Source: Oxynema aestuarii AP17
GTDB lineage: Bacteria; Cyanobacteriota; Cyanobacteriia; Cyanobacteriales; Laspinemataceae
Direction of reading: 5' to 3'
NCBI RefSeq assembly: GCF_012295525.1
Contig: NZ_CP051167.1
Span: 2,480,001 to 2,544,000, forward strand
DNA: 64,000 nucleotides
The position numbers were made by a program, and so were the translations under genes. This document shows positions 6,020 to 40,595 of the stretch, one piece after another (the first letter of the stretch is position 1; every line of letters begins with the position of its first letter). The notes under the pieces are model-generated. The model saw nothing but the letters and a program-made list of their open reading frames with translations. It was not told the origin of the DNA and searched no databases.

Positions 6020-6180
6020 CATTGGGAGACTTTAAACGGGCGTGGAGAGACGGTAAGACTACTGAGTAGCAAGTCTCGATGAAGCGTCAAGGAATCATCG
6101 CCCCTTGAGGGCGGTGAGGTATGTCAATACTTTGAAATTACAAAGATCGTCCCCCTAGTTTTAGGGGGATGGTCTTTTGC
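6020..6180 (+). mobile_element. Solitary IS200/IS605 right end, omega-RNA-like remnant
   Basis: The stretch GTAAGACTACTGAGTAGC, then AAGTCTCGATGAAGC, then a GC-rich hairpin (ATCGCCCCTTGAGGGCGGTG) and ATGTCAA resembles the 3' end of cyanobacterial tnpB elements, the part that gives the TnpB guide (omega) RNA. The same order, GATGAAGC - GAATCCCCG hairpin - TGTCAA, is seen on the minus strand near 32890-32960. No tnpB or tnpA coding sequence precedes it here, so the body of the element is lost. A strong intrinsic terminator closes the segment. Resemblance to omega-RNA is from memory of such ends; transcription is unknown. Confidence 0.55.
6145..6178 (+). terminator. Intrinsic terminator
   Basis: GATCGTCCCCCT (6145-6156), loop AGTTTT, AGGGGGATGGTC (6163-6174), then TTTTGC. 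A long GC-rich stem and a T run mark a rho-independent terminator for a plus-strand transcript, although no intact gene ends here. Confidence 0.7.
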
Positions 6181-32356: not shown

Positions 32357-32839
32357 TTAGAACAAACCGAGGGTCAGCGATTCGGCGATCGGGAAAGTCG
32401 CGCCAATTCCCAACCAGAGGGTGACTGCGGTTCCGAACAGGAACACGGCGGTCGCCACCGGACGACGGAAGGGATTTTGAAACTTGTTCACGCTTTCAAT
32501 AAAAGGAACGAAAATCAAACCCAGGGGAATCCCAGCCATCATGGCAATCCCCAACAACTTGTTAGGGACGATCCGCAGGATTTGGAAGACGGGCCACAAA
32601 TACCATTCCGGGAGAATTTCCAACGGAGTAGCGAAGGGGTCGGCAGGTTCTCCCACCATTGCGGGGTCGAGAACGGCCAAGCCGACGCACAGGGCGATCG
32701 TTCCCAAAATCACGACCGGGAAAACATAAAGCAGGTCGTTAGGCCAAGCAGGTTCGCCATAGTAATTATGGCCCATCCCCTTAGCTAACTTGGCGCGCAG
32801 CATCGGATCGCTCAGATCCGGCTTTTTCAAAATAGACAT
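32357..32839 (-). CDS. petD: Cytochrome b6-f complex subunit 4
   Basis: 160 residues, the usual length. It begins [20 protein letters not shown] and contains [14 protein letters not shown] and the quinol-oxidation-site motif [20 protein letters not shown] (the PEWY loop). Three membrane helices follow the expected pattern. Subunit IV with cytochrome b6 forms the quinol-binding core of the thylakoid b6-f complex. Normally petB lies immediately upstream; here 543 bases with a transposable-element remnant intervene, but both are on the same strand. Coding sequence and start are intact. Confidence 0.97.
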
Positions 32840-32884
32840 AGTTAAGAGTCCTCTCCTGATTTGAAAATCGGTAGGCGCGAGCGA

Positions 32885-33346
32885 GGAGTATCGCTCCCGG
32901 TACCTTGACAGTCCCCGACCTCAAGGGACGGGGATTCTCGCTTCATCGGGAGTCCAACGACTTTCCCCTCGGCGAGCTTCTTGACCGTGTGCCCCACGGC
33001 TGCAAAAGCTGTTTCAAGTGTGCCGCCCATTGCGAGCCAGGTTCCTCCGGTTGACCGCGAGAGGCTGTAGGCGGATCGTCTTAATTCTATCCAAAAGCCT
33101 TACCAGAAGGACGGGGCTGGTATCCCATTATTTTTGGTCATCGAACCCCGACAGACCGAGTTGGCAGGCGGTTTCCTTTCCCCAGAGTCCCCGATGTTCC
33201 TCTATTCTCTAGTTGACCGCAAGCTATGGCTACGGGTTGCTGGTCTCATCCCGATGGTAGGGCTTTGCCCTTCCTGCCGGGTGAGGAATCGACAAGGGTG
33301 GGGGATCCATGTATCCCGAGGCTCACCTTTGAGGTAGAGCGCGGGA
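32885..33346 (-). mobile_element. Internally deleted IS200/IS605-family element between petB and petD
   Basis: The right part (read on the minus strand) has CGATGAAGCGAGAATCCCCG, a palindrome ending in CGGGGACTGTCAA, the typical right end of tnpB elements. Bases 33134-33215 match the 3' part of the tnpB at 39230-39320 (the region encoding LENVVSQGLWGTETACQVGL) but carry a one-base shift. Bases 33225-33346 match the region upstream of that tnpB (40380-40517): GGGATGAGACCAGCA, GGATACATGGA, TCCCGCGCT. About 1 kb of tnpB body is missing. No HIP1 octamer lies inside, unlike flanking DNA. It is thus a non-autonomous remnant of the same family. Confidence 0.65.
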
Positions 33347-33382
33347 GCGATCGCCCCCCGAACCCCCCATTGAGTTAGCGGT

Positions 33383-34051
33383 TTACAACGGACCGGAAAT
33401 CCCTTGTTTGCGGATCATCAAGAAGTGCAGCAACATGAACACCGCAATCAGCCAAGGCAGGACGAAGGTGTGCAGACTGTAATAGCGAGTCAACGTCCCT
33501 TGACCGACGCTGGTGCCGCCGCGCATCAACTCGACGATTGTCGAACCGACGACCGGAATGGCTTCGGGAACGCCAGAAACGATTTTAACGGCCCAATAGC
33601 CAATTTGATCCCAGGGTAAAGAATATCCAGTCACGCCGAAAGACACGGTAATCACGGCGAGAATCACCCCGGTCACCCAGGTCAGTTCGCGAGGTTTTTT
33701 GAAACCCCCCGTCAGATAGACCCGGAACACGTGCAGGATCATCATCAAGACCATCATGCTCGCAGACCAGCGATGGATCGAGCGAATCAGCCAACCGAAG
33801 TTGACTTCGGTCATGATGTATTGAACGGAAGCAAAGGCTTCGGTCACCGTGGGCCGATAGTAGAAAGTCATAGCGAATCCAGTAGCGAACTGGATTAAGA
33901 AGCAAACCAGGGTAATCCCGCCCAAGCAATAGAAAATGTTAACGTGAGGCGGGACGTACTTGCTGGAGATGTCATCAGCGATCGCCTGAACTTCTAAGCG
34001 TTCTTCAAACCACTGATAGACTTTGGAGTTAGATACCTCTTTTGAAAACAT
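33383..34051 (-). CDS. petB: Cytochrome b6
   Basis: 222 residues from the ATG at 34051; the open frame continues upstream of it without protein-like sequence. The protein begins [20 protein letters not shown] and contains haem-ligand helices with [22 protein letters not shown] and [22 protein letters not shown], and the Cys for covalent haem c(n) in FYCLGG. It is the haem-bearing core of the b6-f complex, in the thylakoid membrane. ctpA is divergent upstream, the common cyanobacterial order. The downstream petD is separated by a mobile-element remnant. Confidence 0.97.
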
Positions 34052-39002: not shown

Positions 39003-39091
39003 TAGATCCCCCTAAATCCCCCTTAAAAAAAAGGGACTTTCCTCGATCCCCCCCTATCCCCCCTTCGCCCCCCTTTGAAAGGGTAGGGATC
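39003..39091. repeat. C-rich palindromic repeat
   Basis: Runs such as GATCCCCCTAAATCCCCC, CCCCCCTTCGCCCCCC and TTTGAAAGGGTAGGGATC make a chain of imperfect palindromes. The core CCCCTTCGCCCCCCTTT followed by AAAGG is the same as the repeat found inside the tnpB pseudogene at 39868-39908. Confidence 0.8.
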
Positions 39092-39180
39092 GGCGCTATA
39101 CCTCATCAGACGCCCGAGTGCTGTAACATTGCCGATCGAAGAAGATAATGAGTGACATCCTCCCGACGCTGAATCAAAGA

Positions 39181-40371
39181 TTACAGCGCGGGCTTCCCAG
39201 CCTCACGATTGGGTATTCGGGCCCCGCGCCACTTATCTAGGTCATAGACCCCCGACAGACCGACTTGACAGGCGGTTTCCGTTCCCCAGAGTCCCTGGGA
39301 TACTACGTTTTCTAGTCCACGATGCAAAACCATCTCTGCTGCAGCACGTTCGCGATGCGTTCGATACCCACACTCAGGACAATGATGCTCTCTGACTTCC
39401 AACCCCTTGCTGACCGTAGCAAGGCAGTTGGGGCAGGTTTGACTGGTGCCGTTGGGATTGACTTTAGCAAAGTAGACTCCCCGTTTCCAGCAAACCCATT
39501 CCGTCAGAGACAGGAATTGTCCGAAGGCAGCATCTACACAATCTTTTCGCAGCATTCCTCTCGTCAACCCCGTGACGTTGAGATCTTCTGCAAAGATGGT
39601 TTGTGCCCCGCCTTTTCCCAGTTTTGAGAACCCTTCTGTTTTCGTGCTGCTCTGCGTTGCAGCAATTTCAGCTTGCGTTGCATCGACTTGAAAAACTGGG
39701 GTCGCTCTTGGAAAGAGCGATCGGAAGCGCTCAAGAATCGCTCCAATCCCAGGTCAATCCCGATCGCGCGACCGTGAACTGGAGCATCGGGAACTGATAC
39801 GCTCGACTCAATCGTGACGACAACGTACCATTGTGTACCCCGTACCCTGGACAGTACCCTTACCTGTATCCCCCCAACCCCCCTTTGAAAGGGGGGCGAA
39901 GGGGGGATGCAGGTTGATAGACACTTTCCCAATTTTTGGCAACTTGATTGTGAAGCCATTGATGGGATTGTTCTTGAATTGGGGAAACACAAAGGATTTG
40001 AACTGACCGAACTTTTTGAAACGAGGGAATCCGTGTCCCCGTTTCACAAATGCCTCCCAGGTATCGTGCAGTCTGCGAATTGTGGTCTGTAACACCTGAG
40101 AATGTACCTTACCTAGATGCGGGAATTGCTTCTTTGCTTTGGGCAGGTTATTCTGCTGACGGTGGTAAGACGGGAATGGCTCATCGGCGGGAATGATGTA
40201 TTCCCTTTCCAACGAACATCGGTCTACCGAACACTTACGAGAAGCAATCCAGTCTTTGAGTTCGCGTAAAGCGTAGTTATATACGCCTGTGCACGTCTCA
40301 AGCCACGACCGCAGTTCAGTCTGCTGTACGACATTTGGATAGATTCGGTAGGTGTAGTTCATGGTCAGCAT
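39181..40371 (-). pseudogene. tnpB: tnpB (RNA-guided endonuclease family), broken
   Basis: Three reading-frame pieces together cover a TnpB. The N-terminal piece (40371 to about 39910) starts MNYTYRIYPNVVQQTELRSW and reaches KLPKIGKVSINLH. A C-rich palindromic repeat of about 40 bases is inserted there and shifts the frame. The middle piece has the RuvC-I Asp in GRAIGIDLGLERFL. After QNWEKAG a deletion of roughly 30 codons joins it, out of frame, to TIFAEDLNV (RuvC-II Glu). The C-terminal piece has the zinc finger CPNC/CPECG. Where active TnpBs have DRD before the AAA motif, this one has HRERAAAE, so the RuvC-III Asp seems lost. The gene cannot give active protein. Confidence 0.85.
39868..39908. 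repeat. C-rich palindromic repeat inserted in tnpB
   Basis: ATCCCCCCAACCCCCCTTT, then GAAAGGGGGGCGAAGGGGGGAT, an imperfect palindrome of about 41 bases. Its two frames give IPPSPPFQRGVGGIQ and PPFAPLSKGGWGD, foreign to TnpB. It matches the repeat at 39003-39091. Confidence 0.8.
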
Positions 40372-40595
40372 GACTATAATTTACTACAGACTATAGCTGC
40401 TGATAAATGCTGGTCTCATCCCCATCGTAGGGCTTGACCCTTCCCGCAGGGTGGGGATGAGACTTTTCAAGGGGAGTCCATGTATCCTGACGCTGATGCT
40501 TCGCATACAGCGCGGGACTTATAGCTCCCCGAACCCCTCAAAAGTTAAATCGAAACATCATCACTCCAATCATAAATCCAACCCAATCTTTAAGA

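Follow-up and report, generated by a model that had tools for sequence, protein, structure and literature searches.

The petB-petD spacer

In the window (the whole 64,000-nucleotide stretch analysed here, from a genome that forms a single contig of 6.36 Mb) petB and petD lie on the minus strand exactly 543 bp apart, and both are full length as judged from their open reading frames and Pfam matches. The features are given from petB to petD; within the spacer, numbered in that same direction, position p corresponds to window position 33383-p.

33383..34051, minus strand: petB (cytochrome b6), the intact upstream gene, part of a longer ORF (PF00033, E = 1.4e-84)
33370..33382, minus strand: residual spacer adjoining petB, holding CTAAC where other A-type copies have TTAAC
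33136..33369, minus strand: element A, read as a non-autonomous IS200/IS605-type element (spacer positions 14-247), its left end fused to a 3′ portion of tnpB
33136..33140, minus strand: TGACC at the junction, belonging both to A, as its end, and to the left flank of element B
32905..33139, minus strand: element B, read as a second non-autonomous IS200/IS605-type element (spacer positions 244-478), running from its left end to an intact right end
32905..32950, minus strand: right end of B, with AGAATC, a hairpin and GTCAA, in position and form like the 3′ end of a TnpB guide RNA (model R1, 65.5 bits)
32840..32904, minus strand: petD leader, its last ~40 bp like those of relatives and with a purine-rich ribosome-binding region (by eye)
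32877-32904, minus strand: 28 bp between element B and the conserved petD leader, without assigned origin
32357..32839, minus strand: petD (cytochrome b6f subunit IV), the intact downstream gene, an ORF (PF00032, E = 3.7e-17)

Cyanobacterial petB and petD are co-transcribed. The sequence-only reading of this DNA had described them as normally close neighbours that are split here by 543 bases, and it was exact on both counts: the gap is 98-139 bp in all 13 other genomes of the family, a comparison made at family level, the window genome being alone in its genus in the set. By eye, the spacers of these relatives resemble that of the window over the last ~40 bp before petD alone, which includes the purine-rich ribosome-binding region. 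Taken together, the short gaps and the restricted similarity indicate roughly 465 bp of extra DNA in the window spacer. That reading had placed the foreign DNA at 32885-33346; transposon-derived sequence is indeed present there, but its limits have to be moved to about 32905-33369 (465 bp).

Used as a query against the 6.36-Mb genome, the spacer gave at least 41 matches, one of them at its own site, and the best match outside that site had E = 4.7e-70 (best 40 of 125 candidates scored). At the level of sequence, the presence of transposon-derived DNA in the spacer, far above chance, is confirmed, and the transposable-element origin proposed earlier is well supported by sister copies of A and B across the genome. 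The proposal of a single remnant of one tnpB element did not survive. The extra DNA has the make-up of two non-autonomous IS200/IS605-type elements from different TnpB lineages, neither carrying a gene, and it almost certainly stems from a pair of short IS200/IS605-type TnpB transposon derivatives that encode no protein.

Elements A and B, their copies and their junction

The best relatives of element A lie at 5125053-5125298 and 2308420-2308648 (loci L002 and L003; 85% over nearly the full stretch), and a third (L010, 5463421-5463552) is 82% identical over part of it, all among the best 40 of 125 candidates scored. The core-deleted form of A thus has at least three other copies at unrelated genome sites. 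These have an internal junction in common, at which the left end of a TnpB element is fused to a 3′ portion of the tnpB frame, and about 75 bp of this frame is left in the spacer copy. The common junction points to one ancestral deletion that would then have spread. Loss of the core with retention of the ends, as in the PATE class of elements discussed below, is what A displays, though its final right-end tail (about 90-120 bp in the sister copies) is missing here. The motif beside A-type left ends is TTAAC in L002, L004/L007 and L005 and TTAAG in L010, and is neither of these in L003. TTAAC or CTAAC stands beside A in four of the six copies printed, and this inconstancy counts against our best explanation.

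One relative of A lies in the window itself:

39150..40517, minus strand: broken tnpB element of A's lineage, with PF12323, PF01385 and PF07282 on three separate ORFs

It was to this element that the whole remnant had been assigned. The match holds for two blocks of A, 33238-33369 (74% over 133 columns) and 33136-33191 (91% over 56), both with E = 6e-17, and does not extend to element B, which has no blastn match within the window other than itself. As parent of A the element was rejected, since two blocks match alone and better matches exist elsewhere (85%; best 40 of 125 scored); its sequence makes it a cousin of A. By eye, the element contains a C-rich repeat of the CCCCCCTTTGAAAGGGGGGCGAAGGGGGG type near 39870-39915; stretches like this repeat were seen near 39050-39085 and also in L138.

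Element B occurs at eight other places in the genome, three with both ends and five with the right end only. The former are a full-length copy at 4953278-4953518 (83% identity), a more diverged full copy at 5573207-5573428 and a copy with both ends and a longer interior at about 2788911-2789305. In a whole-genome search with B, every copy site was too short for a tnpB gene. B-like ends flank a broken tnpB gene in two genomes of a sister genus (loci L145/L146 of genomes G010 and G011); against this element, the right end of B is 86% identical over 44 bp and its left end 76% over 34 bp (E = 0.02). B therefore also has the core lost and the ends kept, with ends like those of the G010/G011 tnpB element, and both A and B are present in several copies at unrelated sites. 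When 19 of the ~120 TnpB loci were compared, weak similarity to the right end of B was seen in L128, L129, L132 and L136 (E 0.008-0.02). The DNA that follows the right end differs in every copy of B printed. Before the B-type left end, TGACC or CGACC is found in L116, L138 and L148, and is absent in L009 and L146; it stands beside four of the six B left ends printed, and the two absences count against our best explanation. Judged by eye, the left-end stem of the spacer copy is partly decayed with respect to the CCGTCC-TTCT-AGGACGG form of L146.

Right-end-only copies of B were observed in other gene neighbourhoods. L008 (4971401-4971500) sits in sense orientation between rpsL and rpsG, L006 precedes psb30/ycf12, and L011 precedes carA. 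Three such copies (L011, L012 and L014) are 76-77 bp long and have the same start point after TGAC or TGAT; from its sequence, this form looks as if a minimal unit had moved by itself.

The right end of such elements carries a characteristic structure. Across 18 right ends from the window genome and other cyanobacteria, sequences align on a mostly constant GAATC and an invariant TGTCAA, and in the hairpin between them 78% of cells are paired. Double-sided changes number 11 cells, against a shuffled mean of 4.2. None of 500 shuffles reached the covariation score, and 20 of 500 reached the number of doubly changed pairs; these figures are not a probability, because the aligned sequences are related to one another and also served to draw the structure. 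A hairpin close to the right end, as had been noted in the spacer, is accordingly present (CCCCG...CGGGG, then ACTGTCAA), but no T-run follows it. A TnpA-recognised end would be expected to carry a hairpin of this kind, and so would the 3′ part of a TnpB guide RNA. A covariance model (R1) was built from these 18 right ends, and its score of 65.5 bits for the right end of B is that of a member of its own training set. An Rfam search gave no match. The model also detected another IS200/IS605-type right end in the window at 6075-6127 on the plus strand (36.9 bits, E = 2e-5).

How did A and B come to lie side by side? At the point inside the right end of A where the spacer copy has its TGACC, the sister copies have TGACC (L002) or TAACC (L003, L010) and run on past it to GATGTCAC. 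The DNA to the right of B in the spacer does not continue A. Therefore, a simple insertion of B into A is insufficient and an extra deletion is needed. We propose that a Y1 transposase acting in trans would have moved A and B next to short motifs, TTAAC-like for A and TGACC-like for B. Either B landed in A and a deletion then removed the tail of A, or the two may have lain near each other until a deletion between two TGACC copies fused them; by either route A and B would come to abut at a common TGACC, with the right tail of A lost. These insertions are probably not recent, because the sister copies differ by 15-17%. A profile search found the TnpB TNB domain in 120 genome stretches (119 over the Pfam cut-off) and the Y1 transposase family in five stretches over the cut-off, one of them strong. 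Thus a source and a possible mobiliser are both present in the genome, and the five Y1 stretches are possible candidates for having moved A and B.

Expression of petBD and insertions in other cyanobacteria

A simple consensus scan found no terminator-like site in the insert; it reported two such sites, one in the petD coding sequence (plus strand) and one in that of petB (minus strand), where shuffled sequence gave 0.9 on average. On the minus strand, the insert holds no hairpin followed by a T-run and so lacks the form of an intrinsic terminator. Likewise, no promoter-like site was found in 32700-33500 by a simple consensus scan that covers part of the promoter types. The insert RNA folds somewhat better than shuffled sequence, a difference that is not clear-cut (z = -1.41; equalled by 7 of 100 shuffles). 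Given that the insert has neither terminator-like nor promoter-like sites and that the conserved petD leader is kept, we favour read-through: the petBD transcript would run through the insert, petD would be translated from its own leader, and the insertion would be near neutral. Tolerated read-through with a separate translation start at petD is the likeliest course of events, a large effect of the insert on petBD expression seems unlikely, and the stopping or processing effect once suggested for the right-end hairpin finds no support here. In a passage of a review, petBD is named among light-induced photosynthetic genes that share a promoter name (PMC2758279).

We surveyed petB-petD spacers in other genomes, and 218 were measured, 168 of them distinct, with a median length of 121 bp. 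The petD search behind this survey had a match in 307 of 310 genomes, and its best-scoring places, about half, were listed, so that the sample leans to petD genes like that of the window. The survey took in 97 of the listed petD places and 28 new loci from the petD search itself; L195 (no petB) and G249 (petD at the contig start) were dropped, and G254, G245, G129, G283, G091, G149, G294 and G218 were left out, since by their coordinates they were in the survey already as named loci. The window spacer was the longest among the first 94 spacers, a rank that it loses among the 168 distinct ones to L187 (567 bp).

By our reading, ten of the 168 distinct spacers, in six lineages, hold IS200/IS605-type elements, two of them recognised by motif only. 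The window genome, with A and B, is one lineage. In Okeania (GTDB g108), the L035 spacer matches the tnpB 3′ end and right end found elsewhere in the same genome (L165, L168), L040 and L183 hold a shorter relic, and L192 has beside the relic a second, A-like right end that is 68-70% identical to elements of the window genome. The right-end relic and adjoining leader are 93% identical over 92 bp between L035 and L040. The third lineage (g82) comprises L042 and L238, which were assigned by motif alone; L238 belongs to the R1 training set, and L042 is matched with E = 0.23. As the name Okeania is common to L035/L040 and L042, these two lineages are close. L077 makes a fourth, with tnpB-bearing copies in its own genome (L175, L176). 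That genome also has a right-end-only copy (L177) in the sense direction about 30 bp before a murA-like gene, named by eye. L187 is the fifth; over 50 bp its left end shares 90% identity with L146, and over 149 columns its right end shares 66% with L122. The sixth, L271, is antisense and has six other copies in its own genome (82-95%), around which no TnpB match was found; it was assigned through a left end like that of L187 in its sister copy L386 (89% over 54 bp). A search of the L187 genome with L271 as query gave no match. By our estimate these go back to about eight events, of which seven are sense and one is antisense (p = 0.07). Both genes are kept in these other lineages too, and the insertions at this spot are probably tolerated.

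Pattern searches gave a mixed picture. A scan for a hairpin plus GTCAA in the first 94 spacers gave a weak signal, with nine sense and three antisense hits against a shuffled mean of 4.1 (range 1-8). A stricter version, run on the 168 spacers, had six sense hits and a single antisense one, which fell in the AT-rich L264, whereas shuffles had 0-2; its motifs were defined with several cases already in view, and it missed the right end of the window spacer itself and L271. Model R1 was run on 194 of the 219 survey loci (L279-L303 lay outside) and gave 14 and 19 matches up to E = 5. As six of its 18 training right ends come from petBD, no enrichment is claimed for petBD spacers, and R1 matches fall outside the spacer too, including an antisense one in L048 (E = 0.05). 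R1 also located right ends in sense orientation immediately upstream of petB in L047/L207 (E = 0.02), L074/L234 (E = 0.01) and L075 (E = 0.05).

From about ten loci inspected by eye we had drawn the rule that TnpB right ends lie upstream of genes on the same strand. The next called gene after tnpB at 80 loci of the window genome, some of which overlap or hold related copies, is sense in 48 cases and antisense in 29, and three loci have no called gene. This differs from an even split (p = 0.04 against 0.5). The rule was rejected, since a sense share of 0.70 is expected (p = 0.17), an expectation derived from how long divergent, tandem and convergent spacers are in the 64-kb window alone.

Three other accounts of the insert can be weighed against these results. 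Were it a single remnant of the tnpB element at 39150-40517, with a hairpin that stops or processes the petB-petD transcript, one would expect the two matching blocks and the right-end hairpin, whose pairs covary over 18 right ends. However, element B, which makes up about half of the insert, is of another family, closer relatives of A exist elsewhere in the genome (best 40 of 125 candidates scored), and the missing T-run, the want of a terminator-like site and the folding score of z = -1.41 all speak against termination, so we give this account little credence. A different function is conceivable if TnpB right ends are kept between petB and petD as intercistronic RNA elements, acting as 3′-end stabilisers or processing sites. 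Elements in 10 of 168 distinct spacers, seven sense events of about eight and the 93% identity of the Okeania relic and leader (92 bp, L035 against L040) are consistent with such a role. The orientation bias is not significant (p = 0.07), however, and the gene after tnpB, sense in 48 of 77, is not above the expected 0.70 (p = 0.17). We regard this role as unlikely, and it is hardly probable that filamentous cyanobacteria repeatedly capture sense TnpB right ends in petB-petD and keep them to set or stabilise the petB and petD transcripts.

Finally, B could be a working solo guide-RNA gene whose right end, with the petD leader, is used by TnpB in trans. In ISDra2 the guide RNA consists of the tnpB end, the right end and ~16 nt of flanking DNA, as described in a section of PMC8612924, and the right end of B is formed like the 3′ end of that RNA; moreover, the genome holds 120 TnpB-domain stretches. 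Yet the 20-nt guide region matches itself alone, no second target being found in the whole genome with up to 3 mismatches, no B copy in the genome is long enough to hold tnpB, and the similarities to its right end among the 19 of ~120 TnpB loci compared are weak. We consider such a gene very improbable. Two PATE-like elements from two TnpB lineages, with read-through of the operon, are taken as a whole a highly likely explanation, in which the neutral read-through across the insert is by itself probable; the 28 bp at 32877-32904, outside A, B and the conserved leader, count against it.

Comparison with known systems

Among the open-licence PMC papers listed by word-matching searches, no title or abstract opening reports DNA inserted between cyanobacterial petB and petD. 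We see A and B as two PATE-like elements within an essential operon, a known kind of element in a new place. The operon for two cytochrome b6f subunits can thus carry transposon ends between its genes, and several natural examples are available for asking if these ends change the co-transcription of petB and petD. The analysis also documents a cyanobacterial genome with about 120 TnpB-domain stretches, few Y1 transposases, and both core-deleted and right-end-only derivatives.

The closest likeness is to the PATEs of Haloquadratum walsbyi, which, in the passages of PMC3119063 that concern them, are transposase-free and multi-copy with near-terminal palindromes, and some of which come from IS605-type elements by loss of the core, as do A and B. 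In contrast, A and B are cyanobacterial, they represent two lineages placed next to each other between genes of a photosynthesis operon, and A is without its own right tail. The same passages describe a possibly mobile, terminal-only PATE of 52 bp and 192 instances of an element nested within another. They also give the imbalance of tnpB over tnpA as 38/3 in Natronomonas and about 90/16 in Haloquadratum, which resembles the 120 TnpB and five Y1 stretches of the window genome.

Within the IS200/IS605 family, the IS1341 subgroup, named in parts of PMC3119063 and PMC3542288, has tnpB without tnpA. The relatives of A and B carry tnpB, whereas A and B themselves carry no gene; they have in common with the subgroup a right end of hairpin plus GTCAA, a left-end hairpin and, in four of the six copies printed for each, a short motif beside the left end. 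The MITEs of Anabaena sp. 90, a strain that also has IS1341-type elements, are like A and B short, non-coding, mobile and mostly intergenic; unlike them, they have terminal inverted repeats, which are described in part of PMC3542288 as showing no evident similarity to the inverted repeats of the IS elements of that genome. Lastly, the reRNA of ISDra2 (a section of PMC8612924) joins the tnpB 3′ end and the right end directly to flanking DNA, an order that B reproduces; in contrast to that RNA, B is at most a putative guide.
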